This document shows, piece after piece, positions 21,789-48,557 of a stretch of DNA of 55,704 nt. Within the stretch, counting starts at the first letter, position 1. The number at the start of each line of letters is the position of its first letter. The stretch lies in NCBI GenBank assembly GCA_003135475.1, contig PLBW01000177.1:292-55995 (forward strand), in the 5' to 3' direction. The position numbers and the translations under genes are program-made. This stretch comes from Acidobacteriaceae bacterium (GTDB lineage Bacteria > Acidobacteriota > Terriglobia > Terriglobales > Acidobacteriaceae). Under the pieces are notes generated by a model. The model made no database searches. It saw nothing but the letters and a program-made list of their open reading frames with translations, and was not told the origin of the DNA.

Positions 21789-22805
21789 ATGCACGCGTCA
21801 ATTTCTGCGATCGAATACTTTCTGCCGGAAAAAACCGTCTCAACCGCGGATTTGTCGGCCGAATTTCCGGAATGGTCGGTTGAAAAGATCGACACCAAAA
21901 CCGGCATACGGGACAGACATATAGTTGGCCCGGAGGAGTGTTCTTCGGACTTGGCATTTGCGGCCGCACAGAAACTCTTCGAGTCGGGGGCTTGCCGGCC
22001 GGAGCAGATCGATTTCATCCTGTTGTGCACGCAAAGCCCCGATTACTTCCTGCCGACCACGGCGTGCCTTCTGCAAGACCGCCTCGGTATCTCCACTTCC
22101 GCGGGCGCATTGGACTTTAATCTTGGGTGTTCAGGTTTCGTTTATGGACTGGGACTGGCTGAGGGACTGATTTCGTCGGGCCAAACTTCTAATGTTTTAC
22201 TGCTGACGGCGGAGACTTACAGCAAATTTCTAAATCCACAAGACCGAAGTGTCCGAACCATATTCGGCGATGCCGCCGCTGCGACGCTGGTGAAATCTGT
22301 CGATGCGCCGAGGCCGCTGATCGGGCCGTTTGTCTATGGCACGGACGGAAGGGGAGGGCCGAATCTGATCGTGCCCACCGGGGGCATGCGGAAGCCACGC
22401 ACTGCGGAGAGTGGCGTTGCGTCAGTGGATGAGGGCGGAAATGTTCGCAGCCCCGACAATCTCTACATGAACGGAGCGGAGATTTTCAATTTCACACTCA
22501 CGGCGGTTCCGGAGAGCCTTCAGGCCTTGTTGGACAAGTCCGGCTTCAGGCTGGAGGATATCGATCTTTTCGTGTTTCACCAGGCCAACAAGTACATGTT
22601 GGACCATCTGCGAAAACGGTTGAAGATTCCTGAGGAAAAGTTCCAGCTTGCCATGAGCCACTGCGGAAACACGGTGTCGTCAACCATCCCGATTGCCCTG
22701 AAGCACGCATCAGTGGACGGGAAACTCAAGGCGGGTTCTCTGGTCATGCTGGTGGGATTCGGAGTTGGCTATTCGTGGGGAGCTACTCTGCTGCGTTGGA
22801 GTTAG
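21789..22805 (+). CDS. 3-oxoacyl-ACP synthase III (KAS III/FabH-like)
   Basis: A 338-residue thiolase-fold condensing enzyme. The catalytic triad is visible: Cys114 in NLGCSGFVYGL, His264 in FVFHQANKYML and Asn294 in SHCGNTVSSTIP. FGDAAAATLV and the C-terminal GFGVGYSWGATLLRW are also family features. It differs from housekeeping FabH in residues around the acceptor region, and its neighbours are a dedicated carrier protein, a methyltransferase and an SDR rather than other fab genes. It should condense a short acyl primer with malonyl on a carrier protein. A role in making an acyl substituent for the polysaccharide is inferred. Confidence 0.92.
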   Translation: MHASISAIEYFLPEKTVSTADLSAEFPEWSVEKIDTKTGIRDRHIVGPEECSSDLAFAAAQKLFESGACRPEQIDFILLCTQSPDYFLPTTACLLQDRLGISTSAGALDFNLGCSGFVYGLGLAEGLISSGQTSNVLLLTAETYSKFLNPQDRSVRTIFGDAAAATLVKSVDAPRPLIGPFVYGTDGRGGPNLIVPTGGMRKPRTAESGVASVDEGGNVRSPDNLYMNGAEIFNFTLTAVPESLQALLDKSGFRLEDIDLFVFHQANKYMLDHLRKRLKIPEEKFQLAMSHCGNTVSSTIPIALKHASVDGKLKAGSLVMLVGFGVGYSWGATLLRWS

Positions 22806-22917
22806 ATTCGCTGCGTCGCTACTACCGCCCGGCTGTCAGAGTAGGCGCAGCCCAGACAGGGGCTTGGGGCGTGACGGGAAAGGGATACTCGAAGATGAGC
22901 AACAGAAGAGGTGTTCC

Positions 22918-23832
22918 ATGTCACCTAAGAAAGTGCCAGGGGTCCCCTTAGGGAAGCCTTCCATAGAAGCTCCACTAACCGAGCCTTATTGGTCGGTTGA
23001 CATGGACAAGTCTCCGGATGAAGCAAAGGCACATTACCGTGCTTTCTATGACCAAGTCACACGCCAGTTGAATTCTTCCCCATATGGGGAGTTCTCCCTG
23101 TTTCTCAACTACGGTTACGTGGCAAACGAGAACCCACAGTTTGCGAAGTTCGAAGTGCCAGCATCCTTGTTGAACCCGAACTCCGTAAAATTGGTGCTGG
23201 AGTTGGTTGGGACCTGCGAGATCGCGGGCCGTCGCGTGCTCGACGTCGGGTGCGGGCGAGGCGGCATGATCTTCGCACTGGACTATTTCTTCTCTCCAAA
23301 GTGCCTTCAGGGTGTCGATCTGTCACCCAGCGCCGTCAGTTTTTGTCGCAAAACACAGGAAAAGCCTACCATCGCGTTCCGCGAGGGAGATGCCGAAAAT
23401 TTGCCATTTGCTGACGGCTCTTTCGATGTAGTCACCAACGTAGAGTCGTCGCATAGTTATCCTTCAATTCACAAGTTTTACAGTGAGGTCGCTCGCGTGC
23501 TGGTGCCCGGGGGTTATTTCCTCTACACCGACGTATTGCCGACCGATCAATGGCGTGAAGGGCTCAACTATTTGAGCGAGGCTGGACTTATGCTGGAGCA
23601 CGATAGGAACATCACCGCGAATGTTCTGCTGTCTCTTGATCAGGTCGCGCGCAGATACATGAAGGCCTACGAACCGAATAACGATCCAAAGGTGATGGAA
23701 GACTTCCTTGCGACTCCCGGGTCATTGGTATATGAAGGCATGCGGACGGGCGAGTGGACTTACCGCCTCGTTCGGTTCCGCGCCTCACTCATGCGGATGG
23801 GAGAAGAGAAAGCATCGGGTGTGCCAGCATGA
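22918..23832 (+). CDS. SAM-dependent methyltransferase of the acyl cassette
   Basis: A 304-residue class I methyltransferase with a long N-terminal segment. SAM-binding motif I is GRRVLDVGCGRGGMIFALDYF; later motifs are GVDLSPSAVSFC, GDAENLPFADGSFDVVTNV and EVARVLVPGGYFLYTDV. The overall order resembles methyltransferases that act on polyketide or mycoside precursors, but this is weak evidence. The ATG at 22918 follows agaagaggtg. It overlaps the SDR start by 4 bp (ATGA). It could methylate the acyl chain made by the KAS III or a sugar that receives it. Confidence 0.88.
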   Translation: MSPKKVPGVPLGKPSIEAPLTEPYWSVDMDKSPDEAKAHYRAFYDQVTRQLNSSPYGEFSLFLNYGYVANENPQFAKFEVPASLLNPNSVKLVLELVGTCEIAGRRVLDVGCGRGGMIFALDYFFSPKCLQGVDLSPSAVSFCRKTQEKPTIAFREGDAENLPFADGSFDVVTNVESSHSYPSIHKFYSEVARVLVPGGYFLYTDVLPTDQWREGLNYLSEAGLMLEHDRNITANVLLSLDQVARRYMKAYEPNNDPKVMEDFLATPGSLVYEGMRTGEWTYRLVRFRASLMRMGEEKASGVPA

Positions 23833-24584
23833 ATCCTCTCGACCTCACAGGCAAAACCATCATGATAACCGGAGCCTCCAATGGCATTGGCCGTTCGACC
23901 TCCGTGTATTTAAGCCGGATGGGCGCGAGAATTCTTGCGGTAGGTCGAAACCAGGCGAGGCTTGACGAAACGCTCTCGGCCCTCGAGGGGACTCGACACC
24001 GCTCCTATGCTCTTGACCTGTCAGACGTTGAGCCTCTACCCGCGTGGATGAAACGGGTTGCTGCCGAAGTGGGACCGCTCTATGGGCTGGTTCACAGCGC
24101 TGGCATGGTGTTGAATCGGCCCTTGAGGGTGCTAACTTACTCCGACTACTCGGCGATTCTGCGCATCAATCTCGATGCTGCTGTCATGCTGTCGAAGGGA
24201 TTCCGTCAGAAGGGCGTGCGCGACGAATCCGGAAGCGCCATCGTATACCTGTCGTCGGTTGCGGCGTTCAAGCCCAAGCCGGCATTAGCTGCGTACGCCG
24301 CCTCCAAGGGAGCTTTGATTTCGCTGGCGCGAACTCTGGCACACGAGTTGGCCGCCGATAGAGTCCGGGTAAACTGCGTCTGCCCGGGTTTGGTGCAAAC
24401 GAATATGGTGGCGGATCTAAATGAAATAATTCCGGAGGAACAGCTCAAGGCATTGCTGAGCGAATACCCGCTCGGGATCGGAACACCCGAGGACGTAGCC
24501 TACGCCACAGCATTTCTACTAGCCCCGGCTGCTAAGTGGATTACTGGCACAGCCCTAGTGATCGATGGCGGCTACAGCGCCTGA
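23829..24584 (+). CDS. FabG-like short-chain dehydrogenase/reductase
   Basis: A 251-residue classical SDR. The cofactor motif is TGASNGIGR, followed by LVHSAGM in place of NAG, and the catalytic Ser-Tyr-Lys in VYLSSVAAF and AYAASKGALISL. The end ITGTALVIDGGYSA is typical of FabG-type reductases. Translationally coupled to the methyltransferase. With a KAS III product as substrate it would give a 3-hydroxyacyl group, such as the hydroxybutyryl decorations known on several bacterial surface sugars; a sugar ketone is an alternative substrate. Its 3' end overlaps the convergent acetyltransferase gene by 13 bp. Confidence 0.9.
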   Translation: MNPLDLTGKTIMITGASNGIGRSTSVYLSRMGARILAVGRNQARLDETLSALEGTRHRSYALDLSDVEPLPAWMKRVAAEVGPLYGLVHSAGMVLNRPLRVLTYSDYSAILRINLDAAVMLSKGFRQKGVRDESGSAIVYLSSVAAFKPKPALAAYAASKGALISLARTLAHELAADRVRVNCVCPGLVQTNMVADLNEIIPEEQLKALLSEYPLGIGTPEDVAYATAFLLAPAAKWITGTALVIDGGYSA

Positions 24585-42396: not shown

Positions 42397-43575
42397 ATGG
42401 AACTGAGTCTCCTCGATATCAAATTCGTCGGTATTCTGGCTTTAGTGGCTACCGCGCGGAAGTTTTGCCCGGTACGGTATTACCCACAATATGGCGTGGC
42501 TGTAAGCGCTCTCCTAGTCGGTGTCGCCTCCGTTCAAACCTTAGCAGTCATCACCCTCATAACTCTTCTCTATTTGTATCCAGTTCACCTTCTATGGCGA
42601 CACCTCCGGGCAAGGAAGCGAGACTATGCCAGGCTGATGTTGGGTTTGAGCATCGCCGGCCTTGTTCTGTTGCTGTTTGGATTTAAGGTTTACCGTCAAT
42701 TTAAGGTTCCGTTCTTGGGCGGACTCTGGGCAAGTGATCGGATACTCGCGTTGATCGGATTTTCCTACTTTGTCCTCCGCGCAATCAACTTCCTGCACAT
42801 TCAATCGATCTTGGACGTGGACGAGCGGACTCCCTGGGGTCTCCTGTTCTTTATGCTGTTTCCACCTACAGTGACCAGCGGCCCGATTCAGAAGTATCAG
42901 GATTTCGCCGCGCAGATCACAGCTCCCTTGCCATTGACGACCCCGCTGATTGCCCAATCGGTTTATCGCATCACTCGGGGATACTTCCGAAAAGCTGTGC
43001 TGGCCTATGTTTTGGATCAACTGGTCAAGCGACTCCTTGGATCGACCGCCTTGAACGCATACGGCAGTTTGGCGATAATAGTCCTGCTTTATCTCTATTT
43101 TTATTTCGACTTTGCCGGATATTCGGACGTGGCCATAGGTTTCGGGGGCCTAATGGGAATTCGCGTGCCGGAGAATTTCAGGAACCCATTTCGGGCAACC
43201 TCCGTCAGCGAGTTCTGGCGTCACTGGCACATCACCTTAGTGGACTGGTTCCGGGACAACGTCTTTATTCCTTTGGGGGGTATGCGATCGGGGAAAATAC
43301 GTACGGCATGCCTGGCACTGCTGATTATGGTACTGTGCGGAATGTGGCATGGTTTGACCATCGCCTTCATTGCGTGGGGCTGCTGGCACGGGATGTTGTT
43401 GTTCCTTGAGGCCATTACCGGCTCGAAACCGATGCCACCGTCGCAACGCCACGGGCCGCGTTACTGGTCCAGAGTCCTGTGGACCAACGCACGAGTGGCG
43501 TTGGGGGGGTTGCTTTTTCTTCCCAGCATGAAATCCACGCTGGCTGTACTTGGAGGGTTAGCAAAATGGTATTAA
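42397..43575 (+). CDS. MBOAT acyltransferase (DltB-like)
   Basis: A 392-residue polytopic membrane-bound O-acyltransferase. Family motifs: FFMLFPPTVTSGPIQKYQDF, YFDFAGYSDVAIGFGGLMGI, EFWRHWHITLVDWFRDNVFI and CGMWHGLTIAFIAWGCWHG. His318 in MWHG is the expected catalytic histidine. In the Dlt pathway DltB takes the acyl group from a carrier protein in the cytoplasm and passes it across the membrane to a tyrosine in a C-terminal hexapeptide. Here the MBOAT itself ends GGLAKWY without that hexapeptide, and the next gene, which overlaps it by 10 bp, supplies one. It is the first gene of the operon. Confidence 0.93.
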   Translation: MELSLLDIKFVGILALVATARKFCPVRYYPQYGVAVSALLVGVASVQTLAVITLITLLYLYPVHLLWRHLRARKRDYARLMLGLSIAGLVLLLFGFKVYRQFKVPFLGGLWASDRILALIGFSYFVLRAINFLHIQSILDVDERTPWGLLFFMLFPPTVTSGPIQKYQDFAAQITAPLPLTTPLIAQSVYRITRGYFRKAVLAYVLDQLVKRLLGSTALNAYGSLAIIVLLYLYFYFDFAGYSDVAIGFGGLMGIRVPENFRNPFRATSVSEFWRHWHITLVDWFRDNVFIPLGGMRSGKIRTACLALLIMVLCGMWHGLTIAFIAWGCWHGMLLFLEAITGSKPMPPSQRHGPRYWSRVLWTNARVALGGLLFLPSMKSTLAVLGGLAKWY

Positions 43576-43718
43576 TAAAAAAACTCTGGAACGGCGATCC
43601 GGTGTTCTCGCGGGTGCTGCGATGGGCATTCATGTCGGCCGCAATATTCTGGTCAGTCGCGTATCGGTTGGGAGCACAGGCCTCCAAACTGCCTCAATTC
43701 ATTTATGTCAACTTCTAA
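43566..43718 (+). CDS. DltX-like membrane microprotein with FIYVNF C-terminus
   Basis: A 50-residue protein, easily missed by gene callers. It has a basic N-terminus, one membrane helix (about residues 17-36, VLRWAFMSAAIFWSVAYRLG) and ends exactly in FIYVNF followed by the stop. DltX of Gram-positive bacteria is a similar microprotein whose C-terminal F-x-Y-x-x-F hexapeptide carries the acyl group on its tyrosine between DltB and DltD. The ATG follows ggagggtt and overlaps the MBOAT gene by 10 bp; its 3' end overlaps the SGNH gene by 14 bp. Size, topology, motif and position all agree. Direct homology to DltX elsewhere in the sequence is weak. Confidence 0.82.
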   Translation: MVLIKKLWNGDPVFSRVLRWAFMSAAIFWSVAYRLGAQASKLPQFIYVNF

Positions 43719-44877
43719 TCCAGCCACGGCAGCATCGGCTGAGGGAGTAGCCTCTGCTGCGCCGAAGTTACGGTACCTCGTAGTGGCGGTACTTGGAGTG
43801 TGGATCCTATCGATTCCCTGTGCTGAGATCATCTTCCGTCTGCTCGGAGAGCGTACCACTACCGACTTAGTTGGGCTGTATCAGAGCTTTGGACGGAACG
43901 GCGGCTACAAGCTGGCGCCCAACGCGCGAGCCGACGCTGACACCCTGGTGGGCCGCTTTTCTGTCCTAACGAACGATCTCGGGCTCCGCTGCGGAAAGGT
44001 GGATCTCCGACGACGCTCGGTCGCCGAGAACAGAGGCATTCTCGTCCTGGGCGATTCGCAGGCCTACGGAGAAGGCCTCGATTACGAGGACACCGTGGTG
44101 GGGCAACTGGCTTCCCTGGCCAAGCAGCGGGGGCTGGTTGTGAATAATGCCGCCGTAGGCGGCCATTACCTCGAAAATCAGTTTGAATTGGCCCGCTGGC
44201 TTGATGACCAGGGCGCACGACCCAAGCACATCATCGTGCTGCTCACCCCATACCTTATCGCGACGGCCGGGCGCTACAACCATGTTTTCGTGGGCCCCGA
44301 TGGAGTCTTGTACGATAAAGAGTCTACTTCCCGTCATCATCTCACCCGTTGGTTAAAGCAGCACACGGTCGTTTACGCAAGAGTAAGGAACGCCGTTAGT
44401 AGCTTTCGTCCCGCCCCTAAAACCGACTTGACGCCGGCCCTGGTCAAGTTCTACAGCCGGGCCGAGGAGGCGGGATATCAAGAACGACTGGTGCAGTTCC
44501 TCACGCGGCTATCGGCTTGGTGTGCTGAGCGACAAATAACGATTATGCTTGTCTACACTCCGGGTGTAGTGGAGTTCAAATTTGATCCCGTCGTCCAAGC
44601 TGGGCGTTCGGCGGGCATTGAGGTAGACCGGGACGCTCCGTTTAGGGCTGCACGATCTGCGGCCACTATCCTCAGCATACCGTTTCAGGATCTCCGGCCG
44701 GTAATTGAATGCGAGAGTCTCAACAACCACCCGCTAGCGCTCAGGGATGAAGCGCACTACAGCGCGCCCGTATGCGCTAGCGTTGCGCGCAACATTTGGG
44801 AAGCTTTCATGGGCGGCGCTCTGGGGGACCAATGCGCATCGCCCTCTCATCCCCATCCAGTGGCTAGCCACTATTGA
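43705..44877 (+). CDS. Membrane-anchored SGNH-hydrolase-like acyltransferase (DltD-like role)
   Basis: A 390-residue protein with one N-terminal membrane helix (LRYLVVAVLGVWILSIPCAEII) and a periplasmic SGNH/GDSL domain. Ser118 in VLGDSQAYGEG is the likely nucleophile, and Asp348/His351 in DEAHYS complete the triad. The domain order is that of DltD and AlgX/PatB-type transferases. In the Dlt pathway the serine accepts the acyl group from the DltX tyrosine and hands it to the polymer. The C-terminal 20 residues are polar and poorly conserved-looking. Overlaps the microprotein gene and is 13 bp from the carrier-protein start. Confidence 0.88.
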   Translation: MSTSNPATAASAEGVASAAPKLRYLVVAVLGVWILSIPCAEIIFRLLGERTTTDLVGLYQSFGRNGGYKLAPNARADADTLVGRFSVLTNDLGLRCGKVDLRRRSVAENRGILVLGDSQAYGEGLDYEDTVVGQLASLAKQRGLVVNNAAVGGHYLENQFELARWLDDQGARPKHIIVLLTPYLIATAGRYNHVFVGPDGVLYDKESTSRHHLTRWLKQHTVVYARVRNAVSSFRPAPKTDLTPALVKFYSRAEEAGYQERLVQFLTRLSAWCAERQITIMLVYTPGVVEFKFDPVVQAGRSAGIEVDRDAPFRAARSAATILSIPFQDLRPVIECESLNNHPLALRDEAHYSAPVCASVARNIWEAFMGGALGDQCASPSHPHPVASHY

Positions 44878-44890
44878 AACGGTGACCGAC

Positions 44891-45163
44891 ATGGAAATTG
44901 CACAAGCTCAAGCTGTGGAAACGCTACGAAACTTTATCCGGCAGCGATATAATGTACCGCTAGACGATGCGGATTTTAGCGATGATGTTCATCTCTTCGA
45001 CTACGGGTATATCGATTCCTTTGGAGCAGTCGATCTTATTGCGTTCGTCGAAAGCGCATTCGACATCAAGATAAGCCAGTCTGACCTGGTGGCGTATCCG
45101 TTGAATACCATCCGGGAGATCGCAGACTTCGCGCTTCAAAGGAGAAAGGCGAACGGCATATGA
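44891..45163 (+). CDS. Carrier protein (DltC-like role)
   Basis: A 90-residue acidic carrier protein. Ser43 in DYGYIDSFGAVDLI is the phosphopantetheine attachment site (D-S-x-G/A pattern), and helix III follows (KISQSDLVAYPLNTIREIADFA). I chose the ATG at 44891, which lies 13 bp after the SGNH stop; an upstream start would overlap that gene by more than 130 bp. It overlaps the ligase gene by 4 bp (ATGA), so the two products are probably made in proportion. It should be loaded with an amino acid by the ligase and present it to the MBOAT. A phosphopantetheinyl transferase is not encoded nearby. Confidence 0.92.
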   Translation: MEIAQAQAVETLRNFIRQRYNVPLDDADFSDDVHLFDYGYIDSFGAVDLIAFVESAFDIKISQSDLVAYPLNTIREIADFALQRRKANGI

Positions 45164-46371
45164 CAATCGACTTGGAACAGTTGGACGCAGATTATCTGGC
45201 ACAGGTGCGTTATGCGCTGGCGTTCATCTCCGAAGACGTCGTCTCCTACGATATTGACGCAGCCGCGAAGAAAATCACGATCGAACTCGGGCCTGGCGCC
45301 GATGAAGCCGAAGTGCGGACAAGAGTCGGCGAGATTCTGTCGCGCTACGATCAAAGCCAGTTCGGAATGAAAACGGTGGTCGATTTTGAGCAAAAACGCG
45401 ATCTGCCTGCGTTGGATGCTTGGGCTGGCATGCTGGAACGGCGGTGGGCCACTCCCGTGGGCGACGGACACGTGGTCCTGCGTGGACCGGCAGCGCTTCT
45501 GATGGCACTCGTCGATCATAAAGTTGACTCTATCTTTGCGGAGGAATTCGGAGCCGAGTTAGAGTACTTTCCCTCCACGATCAAGTCAGAGACTCTCCAC
45601 CGGTGTAACCATTTCACTTCGTTCCCCGAACACATGGACTTTGTCGCCCACCTCAAACAGGATCTCGGGGTCCTAAAGCATTTCTCCGATAGCTGTCGGG
45701 ACAAAGGGTGGTCGCCCGAACTGCACGACGGCACCATGAGCCGAAGCGACTTTGCCATTAGCCCGTCCTGCTGCTACCACGCATATGAGGCCATGGAAGG
45801 CTGGGAACTCGAAAAGCCCGGCCGCTGCCTCACCGCAACTCTGCACTGTCACCGCTATGAGGGCGCCAACCACAAGTACATGAGTCGTCTCCGTGCCTTC
45901 ACCATGCGTGAGGTTGTCTGGGTGGGCCACCCGGCTTACATCATTTCCGGCCGGGCGCGGGCGGAACAATTGATTATCCAGTGGGCAAAAGATTGGGAGC
46001 TGAGTTGCCGTTTTGAAACCGCCAATGACATGTTCTTCACGGACGACTACGCGGTAAAAGCATCCTTCCAGCGCCAGCAACAGGGCAAGAAGGAGCTGCG
46101 CCTTGATGTTCCATCGGAAGGCCGCTCGATTAGCTGCTTCTCTTCCAATTTTCACTCTACGACCTTTGGCAAGGCCTTTGGCATCAGCGTGGCCGGCCGG
46201 CCCGCAACCAGCGGGTGCATCGCCTGGGGGTACGAACGGTGGGTTTATGCACTCCTCAGCCAGTTCGGGTTTAGACCAGAGGAATGGCCCGCCGGACTCC
46301 GCGACGACTACGAACGCTTCGTCAGGGACCGCCGTACCACCCTTCCGGCACGTGCGGCTACACCAGAATGA
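45160..46371 (+). CDS. Class II aminoacyl-tRNA-synthetase-like amino acid:carrier protein ligase
   Basis: A 403-residue protein resembling the truncated seryl-tRNA-synthetase homologues that load amino acids onto carrier proteins instead of tRNA. Visible features: SPSCCYHAYEAM, a motif-2-like region HRYEGANHKYMSRLRAFTMRE, and a motif-3-like ATSGCIAWGYERWVYALL. Cys204/Cys205, Glu251 and Cys353 have the spacing expected for the zinc-binding Cys-Glu-Cys set. There is no tRNA-binding coiled-coil arm. The first 90 residues (an alpha/beta region) are an extension beyond the catalytic core. Position next to a carrier protein and MBOAT makes it the functional stand-in for DltA. The amino acid is not predictable; small ones (Gly, Ala, Ser) are plausible. 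Confidence 0.88.
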   Translation: MTIDLEQLDADYLAQVRYALAFISEDVVSYDIDAAAKKITIELGPGADEAEVRTRVGEILSRYDQSQFGMKTVVDFEQKRDLPALDAWAGMLERRWATPVGDGHVVLRGPAALLMALVDHKVDSIFAEEFGAELEYFPSTIKSETLHRCNHFTSFPEHMDFVAHLKQDLGVLKHFSDSCRDKGWSPELHDGTMSRSDFAISPSCCYHAYEAMEGWELEKPGRCLTATLHCHRYEGANHKYMSRLRAFTMREVVWVGHPAYIISGRARAEQLIIQWAKDWELSCRFETANDMFFTDDYAVKASFQRQQQGKKELRLDVPSEGRSISCFSSNFHSTTFGKAFGISVAGRPATSGCIAWGYERWVYALLSQFGFRPEEWPAGLRDDYERFVRDRRTTLPARAATPE

Positions 46372-46880
46372 GTGGGACTGTCACTATCGAGCCGCTGGCG
46401 ACGGCGGACTTTCCGATGGTTGCGCAATGGCTTTCGGAACCGCAAACCAATCAGTGGCTAAGCAGCGATTGGAGGGGTCGGACCGTTGATCCGACGCTGA
46501 TCGGGGTGGCGATGCGTAACCGAAAGAACCGCTTCTACCTGGTTCGCTGCGACGGCCACGCGTGCGGGCTTGTGGCCCTCGCTGACCTTGATCTGACTGA
46601 CGGGATCGCAATGATCTGGTACGTTTTGGGCAACAAGAATGTGCAAGCTCGGGGAATCACGACTTCAGCAGTGCGCCAACTTATCCACTCAGCATTTAAT
46701 GAGATGCAACTGGAATCGGTCCATGCCTGGGTCATGGAAGACAATACGGCCTCTGCTCGCGTACTCGAAAAAGCAGGATTTCGAGAGGCCGGAAGGTTGC
46801 GTTCTGCCGCTTCTCATAACGGCAGGCGGGTGGATCGAATCTACTTTGACAAGACGCGGTTGGATGTTGATCCTCCTTAA
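46368..46880 (+). CDS. GNAT-family N-acetyltransferase (RimJ/RimL type)
   Basis: A 170-residue GNAT. It starts VTIEPLATADFPMVAQWLSE, has the acyl-CoA-binding region NKNVQARGITTSAVRQLIHS, and the conserved NTASARVLEKAGFREAGRLR. The ATG at 46368 overlaps the ligase stop by 4 bp. It is the last gene of the operon. In this place it could acylate the amino group of the aminoacyl-carrier or of the free amino acid, so that the transferred group is an N-acyl amino acid. This is inferred; it could also act on a sugar amino group. Confidence 0.88.
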   Translation: MSGTVTIEPLATADFPMVAQWLSEPQTNQWLSSDWRGRTVDPTLIGVAMRNRKNRFYLVRCDGHACGLVALADLDLTDGIAMIWYVLGNKNVQARGITTSAVRQLIHSAFNEMQLESVHAWVMEDNTASARVLEKAGFREAGRLRSAASHNGRRVDRIYFDKTRLDVDPP

Positions 46881-46976: not shown

Positions 46977-48557
46977 TCAAAGCCCACTCGGGCCGACACG
47001 CTCTTCAAGGTATTGCGCAACCCTGCGGAAAGCCGGACGGGACGAGCCGTTCAAGACGACCGCCAATTCCAACAGCACGGGCGGTTTGCGCCACAGCAGG
47101 AGTGCCAGATACACAACCACGCCGAACCCCACTGTGCTGATCAAATTGAACCCAGCGTTCTGGATCCCAAGCTGGCGCAATCCTTGCAGCCAAGCTTCGG
47201 TTGCGGCGGCCATTGCGAGGCTTATCCACATGGTAGGCCAGAGAGTTTGCAGGAGTTTCTTCCCCGACAGTTGAACCAGCCGGAAGGGAATCAGAAAACC
47301 CGGAACCATCAGCAACAGCCAGACGAACGCATAGCACCCGGCCACCCCCAGGATGCCCCAGCGCAATCCCAGCGCAAAGGATCCAACATACATAACACTG
47401 GCAAACATCGACCAGCGAAACTGAAGATCGGGCCGCCCCTGCGTATTGTAGATTAGGCCAACCGTGGTGTAGATCGATTGTGCCGCTCCCAAGGGAGCGA
47501 AAATGATCAACAGTCCAGCCACCGGCATCCATCGCGCTCCAAGGAAAACGCGGACGAAAGGCTGCGCGGTCACCGCGAGGCCCAGCATCAGTGGGAAGGT
47601 CAGTAGCCCGATCAACCGACAGGTACGCAGATATGCGGTACGGAAGCGCTCCCGATCGTCCTGAATCTTGGACAAGGCCGGATAGACGACCTGAGCGACT
47701 ACCCCAGCGAAGTTCTGGATGGGATAGGTCATCAACATATACCCCATCTGGTAAAAGCCCAGAGGCCCGCTCCCCAGAAACTTACCCACCAGAAGGTTAT
47801 CGGCATTGCGTGAGAAATAATTCAGCACGTTGAACCCGCTCAGGTTCAGTCCGAAAGAAAGCATATGCCGGGCATCCACTGGACGGAAAACCGCTTTAAG
47901 TCGAAACGGGGAGGCGATCCATATCGCCAGGGTCGCTACCGCGGTGGTCGCAATAGACCCGCTCACCAGGCTCCAGACCTTGCCTCCAGCCAGCGCAACC
48001 GTAACCGCCACCACTGTTCCGCTGATAGCGCCCGCAGTCTGCGCTAACGCCACTTTGCGGAAGGCCATCTCTCGATTCAGCATGGATAGCGGCACCACGC
48101 CGATCGTACCCACGAAGAACCCGATGGAAAGGAACTGCAGCACAGTCGCGACTTGCGGTTCATGAAAGAAGCGCGCCGTCGGCCACGAAACCGCAATCAT
48201 GATCAGGGCGATGAGGACACCCGAACCACAGGTGAGCCAGAAGACAGTCGCGGCCAAATCCTGGGAAACCTCGCGTTCCCGCACCAAGGCAGTACCTATG
48301 CCCGCGTCACGAACAGTCTCCAGCAAGGCGACAATTACGACGGCCATGGCCACCAGACCGTAGGCCGAGGGGGGGACCTTGCGCGCCAGAACCGATACCG
48401 AGCCGATTTGCAACAGCTGGCGGGCTATCTGGAAGAGGCTGATCCAGGCGACGCCGGAAGCGGTCTTGTGCGTAAGTGTGCGCTTGTCCCCGGGAATGCC
48501 GCCTGACGAATCTTCCTTCTGCCGGCCTCGGATCACGTTGGAAGCCGGTTCGCTCAT
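46977..48557 (-). CDS. Wzx-like lipopolysaccharide/oligosaccharide flippase (MOP superfamily)
   Basis: A 526-residue protein with about 12-14 membrane helices. The N-terminal part contains TASGVAWISLFQIARQLLQI and VPPSAYGLVAMAVVIVALLE, then DAGIGTALVRERE, the usual Polysacc_synt motif; NYFSRNADNLLVGKFLGSGP and PLGFYQMGYMLMTYPIQ follow. These proteins move undecaprenyl-linked repeat units to the outer face of the membrane. It is the only flippase in the window. Its ATG overlaps the stop of the decayed methyltransferase frame (ATGA), a sign of former coupling. Convergent with the GNAT gene of the Dlt-like operon. Confidence 0.92.
   Translation of the reverse strand: MSEPASNVIRGRQKEDSSGGIPGDKRTLTHKTASGVAWISLFQIARQLLQIGSVSVLARKVPPSAYGLVAMAVVIVALLETVRDAGIGTALVREREVSQDLAATVFWLTCGSGVLIALIMIAVSWPTARFFHEPQVATVLQFLSIGFFVGTIGVVPLSMLNREMAFRKVALAQTAGAISGTVVAVTVALAGGKVWSLVSGSIATTAVATLAIWIASPFRLKAVFRPVDARHMLSFGLNLSGFNVLNYFSRNADNLLVGKFLGSGPLGFYQMGYMLMTYPIQNFAGVVAQVVYPALSKIQDDRERFRTAYLRTCRLIGLLTFPLMLGLAVTAQPFVRVFLGARWMPVAGLLIIFAPLGAAQSIYTTVGLIYNTQGRPDLQFRWSMFASVMYVGSFALGLRWGILGVAGCYAFVWLLLMVPGFLIPFRLVQLSGKKLLQTLWPTMWISLAMAAATEAWLQGLRQLGIQNAGFNLISTVGFGVVVYLALLLWRKPPVLLELAVVLNGSSRPAFRRVAQYLEERVGPSGL

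Follow-up and report, generated by a model that had tools for sequence, protein, structure and literature searches.

The six-gene operon at positions 42397-46880 of the window (the whole 55,704-nucleotide stretch of DNA analysed here) is likely to encode a carrier-dependent system for the transfer of aminoacyl, and probably N-acyl-aminoacyl, groups to an exported polysaccharide. All six open reading frames are on the plus strand, in the order MBOAT, microprotein, SGNH protein, carrier, ligase and GNAT (Table 1). The MBOAT and microprotein genes overlap by 10 bp and those of the microprotein and the SGNH protein by 14 bp, a gap of 13 bp separates the SGNH and carrier genes, and overlaps of 4 bp join carrier to ligase and ligase to GNAT. 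These positions and junctions had been given by the initial annotation and were borne out to the base, while the protein types it had named (an MBOAT, a 50-residue membrane microprotein, an anchored SGNH protein, a carrier, a class II ligase and a GNAT) agree with the family searches or, for the microprotein, with position equivalents in other genomes. Judging by sequence, the operon sits inside an exopolysaccharide cluster; the rest of the window holds Poly_export, Bac_transf, GDP-mannose dehydratase, Wzy_C and UDP-GlcNAc 2-epimerase genes.

Table 1. Genes of the operon and a neighbouring gene, with their positions in the window.
Feature	Position	Strand	Evidence
MBOAT acyltransferase, DltB-like, 392 aa	42397..43575	+	PF03062, TIGR04091, PDB DltB matches
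One-helix microprotein, DltX-like, 50 aa	43566..43718	+	C-terminal motif, position equivalents in other genomes
SGNH protein, N-terminally membrane-anchored	43705..44877	+	PF13472 (weak), Foldseek, invariant residues
Phosphopantetheine carrier protein, DltC-like, 90 aa	44891..45163	+	PF00550, DltC models
Class II synthetase-like amino acid:[carrier protein] ligase, 403 aa	45160..46371	+	NF005479, Bll0957 alignment, AlphaFold model
GNAT N-acyltransferase, RimJ/PseH-like, 170 aa	46368..46880	+	PF13302, TIGR03585
Wzx-type polysaccharide flippase (context only)	46977..48557	-	PF13440, 5.4e-83

The computation shows the order of the genes, the conservation of catalytic residues, the placement in families and the return of the complete set in more than one layout; the individual reactions, which amino acid is used, when the GNAT acts and which polymer is modified are inferred. 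The ligase would activate a small alpha-amino acid with ATP, the amino group being held on the active-site zinc, and would load it as a thioester onto the phosphopantetheine arm of the carrier, where the GNAT would then probably acylate the exposed amino group, with acetylation as the simplest case. At the cytoplasmic face, the DltB-like MBOAT would accept the acyl group of the carrier and hand it on to Tyr47 of the microprotein; from there it would move to Ser118, the catalytic residue of the anchored SGNH protein, and finally to a hydroxyl on the exopolysaccharide that the surrounding cluster produces. This proposed succession of thioester, tyrosine ester, serine ester and polymer would be that of Gram-positive teichoic acid D-alanylation (dltXABCD), with which the operon shares a DltB-like MBOAT, a one-helix microprotein with F-x-Y-x-x-F, an anchored SGNH protein and a DltC-like carrier. 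It differs in its loader, which is class II synthetase-like whereas that of Dlt is the AMP-binding DltA, in an SGNH protein that is not recognised as DltD and whose orthologue matches AlgX, in the added GNAT, and in its host, an acidobacterium with an exopolysaccharide cluster and not teichoic acid. We regard the chemistry as a relay of the Dlt kind in which another enzyme does the activating.

The activating enzyme, of tRNA-synthetase descent, has as a homologue in both sequence and fold Bll0957, a glycine:[carrier protein] ligase whose structure is solved (PDB 3mey, 4h2s). It matches Bll0957 in the PDB search at 3.9e-28 with 28% identity and the NCBIfam model NF005479 ('amino acid--[ACP] ligase') at 5.3e-37, below the equivalog cut-off, and its AlphaFold model (pLDDT 81) matches Bll0957 at a target TM of 0.83-0.88. 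The two have in common the catalytic core, the pairing with a carrier and the zinc and ATP-site positions, which in the window ligase are C205, E251 and C353 (the zinc ligands of Bll0957 being C131/E176/C279), R232/E234 in motif 2 and E359-R360 in motif 3. All of these align with Bll0957 and are invariant in 18 homologues, giving a class II core with its zinc ligands and the arginines of both motifs (R232, R360). Every catalytic position being conserved, an inactive ligase was ruled out at the sequence level, and the amino-acid-activating site that the initial annotation had presupposed is complete in the alignment, the homologues and the model; the ligase is predicted to load an amino acid onto the carrier. 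It differs from Bll0957 in having an additional domain of some 105 residues at the N-terminus (approximately residues 1-105) and in its coupling to an MBOAT-SGNH relay, while the other Bll0957-type relatives seen have dehydrogenases or biosynthetic clusters as neighbours.

The carrier matches PF00550 above the cut-off (1.6e-9), and DltC models are among its best NCBIfam matches (5e-8 and 4e-6, below the cut-off). As in DltC, there is a predicted phosphopantetheine site, Ser43 in FDYGYIDSFG (codon 45017-45019), with the DSxx serine kept. As with Bll0957-type ligases, the carrier is a dedicated one, encoded by a gene overlapping that of the ligase in the window and by a divergent gene in locus L038, and the carriers adjoining the ligase in L003-L006 are 48-61% identical to that of the window.

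The components of the relay were characterised in the same way. The MBOAT is of DltB type: it matches PF03062 at 9.5e-25 and the DltB model TIGR04091 at 3e-54 (under the equivalog cut-off), its sole PDB matches are the DltB structures 6bug/8jem (about 2.5e-31), and it has both histidine motifs, EFWRHWH (H278) and CGMWHG (H318). Identity to its counterparts is 62% in L005 and 53% in L006. The window MBOAT itself is without a shuttle motif, which is found at the C-terminus of the microprotein, F45-I-Y47-V-N-F50 (codons 43698-43715). FXYXXF is the acyl-shuttle motif of DltX, whose tyrosine accepts D-Ala (PMC12148441). The microprotein gave no match to any family in the searches; equivalents are present at the same position in L005 and L006 and adjoining the MBOAT in L038, with the F, Y and F of the motif invariant across the four sequences. 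In the 637 kb of ligase loci plus the window, F-x-Y-x-x-F occurs immediately before a stop in 8 instances, five of them in short proteins adjoining an MBOAT and three at the C-terminus of an MBOAT itself.

The SGNH protein, weak by sequence (PF13472, 1.6e-4), has the nucleophile motif GDSQ with S118 (codon 44056-44058), as well as H351, and G116-D117-S118 and H351 are invariant in three orthologues. Its model reaches a moderate pLDDT of 63 and was used for the fold class alone; the Foldseek matches were SGNH esterases, with E down to 3e-5. No DltD match was found in Pfam or NCBIfam, and by these family searches the protein is outside the DltD family; the analogy with Dlt drawn in the initial annotation holds at family level for the MBOAT, the microprotein and the carrier (DltB, DltX and DltC) and not for the SGNH component. 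The L005 orthologue matches AlgX (PF16822, 7.9e-8), and an MBOAT with an AlgX-like SGNH protein for an exported polysaccharide is also the arrangement of alginate O-acetylation (AlgI, AlgX/AlgJ), in which we know of no carrier, ligase or GNAT.

In the tree, the ligase belongs to a clade of six members (support 100/99) from Acidobacteriota and Planctomycetota. All six possess MBOAT, F-x-Y-x-x-F shuttle, SGNH protein, carrier and GNAT, and MBOAT, shuttle tyrosine motif and SGNH protein share a locus in the window and in each of the other five members. In L003, L004 and L038 the SGNH protein was assigned from motifs, Pfam giving weak matches or none. Three genomes (window, L005, L006) have the operon as in the window, two (L003, L004) have a fused-shuttle MBOAT of PatA/AlgI type, and one (L038) has a rearranged divergent set. 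The association of the six components is not accidental: they recur in three layouts across six genomes from two phyla, which rules out a chance neighbourhood, and the co-occurrence that had been anticipated was found in both related and distant genomes. All loci compared come from metagenome-assembled genomes. The ligase is absent from all eight same-genus genomes searched, and the locus is therefore accessory in that genus. The GNAT (PF13302, 1.8e-18; PseH model TIGR03585, 1.3e-12 in NCBIfam) stands beside ligase and carrier in every clade member and in most other full-length ligase loci, and the GNATs of the six clade members fall in two subtypes with no detectable mutual similarity, that of L038 being of the other subtype. 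Several full-length ligases (e.g. L085, L089, L093) have a carrier and a GNAT and no adjoining shuttle MBOAT, so the trio is not solely for the relay. In L086-L088 the trio is accompanied by an MBOAT, and shuttle motif and SGNH protein were not found.

The operon contains no DltA or AMP-binding ligase, and in the window genome (82% complete) no gene exceeds the DltA cut-off (TIGR01734). Its best DltA-like gene (G000 C76, L110) lies elsewhere, with a carrier and without MBOAT or SGNH protein, and a dlt operon hidden elsewhere in the genome was thus discarded. Nor was an ancestral, DltA-bearing version of the operon seen among the five closest MBOATs from 227 genomes of the phylum: none of the five had a ligase or a carrier by profile search, and four were fused-shuttle types. 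Related fused-shuttle MBOAT loci of the phylum (L117-L120) had no carrier gene by profile. The claim that DltA is replaced in this operon is accordingly correct as anatomy; as history it finds no DltA-containing ancestor, the closest sampled MBOATs being mostly fused-shuttle types without a carrier.

Other explanations have to be weighed. A plain Dlt-like aminoacylation, with a free-amine group such as glycyl passed to the polymer and the GNAT acting on a sugar or in detoxification, shares the relay with the explanation favoured here and differs solely in the GNAT step. Every Dlt part is present, and DltC itself carries and delivers its amino acid with the amino group free (PMC12148441). We nonetheless regard this as unlikely, given that the GNAT is the most constant partner of ligase and carrier, that its gene overlaps that of the ligase, and that it is found in 6 of 6 clade members, as two dissimilar subtypes, and also beside full-length ligases without a shuttle MBOAT. 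The MBOAT could also take acetyl-CoA as PatA does, carrier and ligase then serving another task. In peptidoglycan O-acetylation (PatA/PatB) the same logic of MBOAT, shuttle tyrosine and SGNH serine is found, in the fused-shuttle form seen in L003/L004; however, PatA takes acetyl-CoA with no carrier, whereas in L003/L004 the relay still has a carrier and a ligase beside it.

Such a separation of tasks would have the ligase, carrier and GNAT form an amide on a cytoplasmic amino sugar, with the aminoacyl-carrier as donor, and the MBOAT, microprotein and SGNH protein O-acetylate the polymer from acetyl-CoA. Acyl-CoA is the donor in other MBOAT-SGNH systems (PMC12148441), the GNAT is similar to PseH, an amino-sugar N-acetyltransferase, and some of the ligase-carrier-GNAT sets without a shuttle MBOAT adjoin hexapeptide acyltransferases and other sugar genes. 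Described systems, however, pair a separate microprotein with a DltB/carrier arrangement, shuttle MBOAT and trio stay together in the whole clade despite rearrangement and module exchange, and no carrier gene was detected by profile in the related fused-shuttle loci L117-L120, all of which makes two independent jobs unlikely. It is very improbable that the ligase supplies a small-molecule pathway (for instance to extender units of the aminomalonyl type or to dehydrogenated amino acids), with the MBOAT genes beside it by coincidence: homologues on plasmids of Streptomyces and Alkalihalophilus do have acyl-CoA dehydrogenase, 3-hydroxyacyl-CoA dehydrogenase, acyltransferase and carriers as neighbours, but the operon has no dehydrogenase, ketosynthase or condensation domain, and its clade is separate in the tree, spans two phyla and always has the MBOAT set.

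Returning to carrier-dependent (N-acyl-)aminoacyl transfer, the initial proposal that two chemistries are joined here to modify a surface polysaccharide is supported by the intact ligase site and the recurrence of the set, while amino acid, GNAT role and polymer stay a matter of inference. More tentatively, ligase, carrier and GNAT may constitute a portable donor module making N-acyl-aminoacyl-carrier, plugged into a DltB plus microprotein relay, a fused-shuttle PatA-type MBOAT or perhaps cytoplasmic hexapeptide acyltransferases, and decorating exopolysaccharides of Acidobacteriota and Planctomycetota with N-acylated amino acids. To our knowledge, no MBOAT uses such a donor. In the open-access literature searched we found no description of an MBOAT combined with a synthetase-like ligase, and no paper naming Bll0957 along with a related term; the novelty of the system is judged from this limited literature.

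Structures have been solved for amino acid:[carrier protein] ligases of the synthetase-like kind, which occur across bacterial phyla, and we know of no settled cellular role for them. This operon would give them a concrete and testable one. If the proposed route is true, Dlt would be joined by another MBOAT relay that is fed from a carrier, and L003 and L004 would be exceptions to a published rule, namely that MBOAT systems with a fused shuttle use acyl-CoA and for that reason have no carrier. If the GNAT step is also true, the donor would be chemically new for this class of enzymes.

All six open reading frames of the operon, their strand and their junctions were found in the window sequence as the initial annotation had described them. 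The MBOAT is DltB-like (TIGR04091, 3e-54), and DltB was its only PDB relative at E up to 0.1; the microprotein has 50 residues with a single hydrophobic stretch and ends in QFIYVNF, while family profile searches identified the carrier as DltC-like and the GNAT as being of the RimJ/PseH type. The SGNH protein is weakly recognized by sequence; its structure model groups with SGNH esterases, G-D-S and one histidine are invariant in three orthologues, and the orthologue in L005 passes the AlgX cut-off. The operon lies within an exopolysaccharide cluster, beside a Wzx-type flippase. Two other genes of this cluster (Table) suggest that it also produces an additional acyl group.

The ligase matches NF005479 (5e-37, below cut-off) and the structurally solved glycine:[carrier protein] ligase Bll0957 (4e-28), whose structures contain a bound glycyl-adenylate analogue according to the title of 3mf1. 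Its AlphaFold model (pLDDT 81) reached a target-normalised TM of up to 0.88 against Bll0957, and the top structural match overall was an archaeal-type SerRS, with an alignment long enough to cover the N-terminal domain. The zinc positions of Bll0957 (C131, E176 and C279) and the arginines of its motifs 2 and 3 align with C205, E251, C353, R232 and R360 of the ligase, all of them invariant across 18 homologues. Since zinc holds the amino group of the substrate in type-2 SerRS and Bll0957, we expect an amino acid with a free amine to be loaded, and any N-acylation would therefore come after loading.

A scan of genome contigs yielded four close ligase relatives. Two, from Acidobacteria (L005) and Planctomycetota (L006), belong to complete six-gene sets in identical order, with microproteins of 49% and 44% local identity, respectively. 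In the other two (L003 and L004, Acidobacteriota) carrier, ligase and GNAT are kept, and the divergent neighbour is an MBOAT of 485-490 residues ending in FVYFAF, followed by an SGNH-like protein with the motifs GGSVS or GASVS and DGVH, for which Pfam is weak or silent. In L038, whose genome was sampled within the same phylum as L006, the ligase (35% identity) is followed by an SGNH-like protein with a GNS motif and no Pfam match, a 57-residue microprotein ending in GGTFIYEGF and an MBOAT; a carrier and a GNAT of a different subtype lie upstream on the opposite strand. One clade of the tree holds these five ligases and that of the window (support 100/99); its loci include metagenome assemblies.

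M23, W29, L35, F45, Y47 and F50, and no other positions, are invariant across the four microproteins compared. In the 636,778 bases of the window and ligase loci, F-x-Y-x-x-F occurs directly before a stop eight times, five in short proteins next to an MBOAT (window, L005, L006, L038, L040) and three as the end of the MBOAT itself (L003, L004, L091). The L040 locus, where no GNAT was noted, is possibly another carrier-fed relay. Two shuttle motifs coexist in L119 (Table).

Coordinates of the operon and of loci discussed in the text
Locus	Position	Strand	Features
Window	42397-46880	+	Six-gene operon
Window	21789-24584		Ketoacyl-ACP synthase III-like gene, short-chain dehydrogenase
L040	8190-12405		Bll0957-type ligase, carrier, AurF-like oxygenase; convergent to microprotein (ending VVFRYEGF), MBOAT, second carrier
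L119	5694-7559		MBOAT with fused shuttle motif (ending DFLYFQF), then separate 57-residue protein ending FVYDIF
L086	6796-9925		Distant MBOAT (no Pfam match), carrier, ligase, GNAT in a row
L087	1-3191		As L086
L088	2432-5597		As L086
L110 (window genome, contig C76)	7640-9419		DltA-like AMP-binding gene adjoining carrier, in another cluster

Linkage of carrier, ligase and GNAT is wider than that of the relay. GNATs near the ligase are of 170 residues in the five closest loci, of about 165 in L023, L038 and L086-L088, and of about 320, related by BLAST, in L085, L089, L090, L091, L093 and L055. Several ligase loci that have no adjacent shuttle MBOAT adjoin hexapeptide acyltransferases (L085, L089, L091, L092, L022). 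Because of this wider linkage and these acyltransferases, we infer that the three genes make a single donor, most simply an N-acyl-aminoacyl-carrier, shared by different terminal transferases. Alternatively, the GNAT itself could be the transferase, and taken alone the GNAT step is close to an even call. Neither shuttle motif nor SGNH gene was found in L086-L088, possibly a cytoplasmic-side or lipid-directed variant of the set. Separately, ligase homologues in Streptomyces and Alkalihalophilus plasmids (L043, L044, L045) accompany carriers, 3-hydroxyacyl-CoA dehydrogenase, acyl-CoA dehydrogenase and acyltransferases; they stand where we would expect the NRPS-type seryl-loading domain of aminomalonyl-carrier pathways, and may be seryl:carrier ligases.

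The initial annotation had DltA replaced by the ligase. No gene of the window genome passed the DltA cut-off; the best scored 263 bits vs 560, and its cluster (L110) holds neither MBOAT nor SGNH. Among 227 genomes sampled in the phylum, four of the five closest other MBOATs are fused-shuttle types, and no ligase or carrier was found beside the five. Replacement thus describes the make-up of the operon rather than a demonstrated history.

The ligase is missing from eight genomes of the same genus. Few of the genomes sampled in the phylum carry any homologue (11 of 396); homologues are commoner in the family of L004 (24/237) and also occur in the phylum of L006 (6/392). One hit, C149:130322-131425, came up in two of the scans, by which the window genome and the family of L004 seem to fall in one class, making the host an acidobacterium. 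Ligase loci are patchy and accessory.

DltX hands D-Ala from DltB on to DltD via the Tyr of FXYXXF, and a carrier is said to be absent from other MBOAT-SGNH systems because they use acyl-CoA (PMC12148441); the dlt operon is given as dltXABCD in most Gram-positive bacteria (PMC5541007). The DltB relationship and the conserved linkage lead us to infer that this MBOAT draws on the carrier and not on CoA. An MBOAT joined to a synthetase-like ligase was not described in the open-access literature searched, and on that basis the novelty of the combination is probable, short of proven. More likely than not, the operon encodes a carrier-fed relay, probably including the GNAT step, that would deliver an amino-acid-derived group to an exported polymer.
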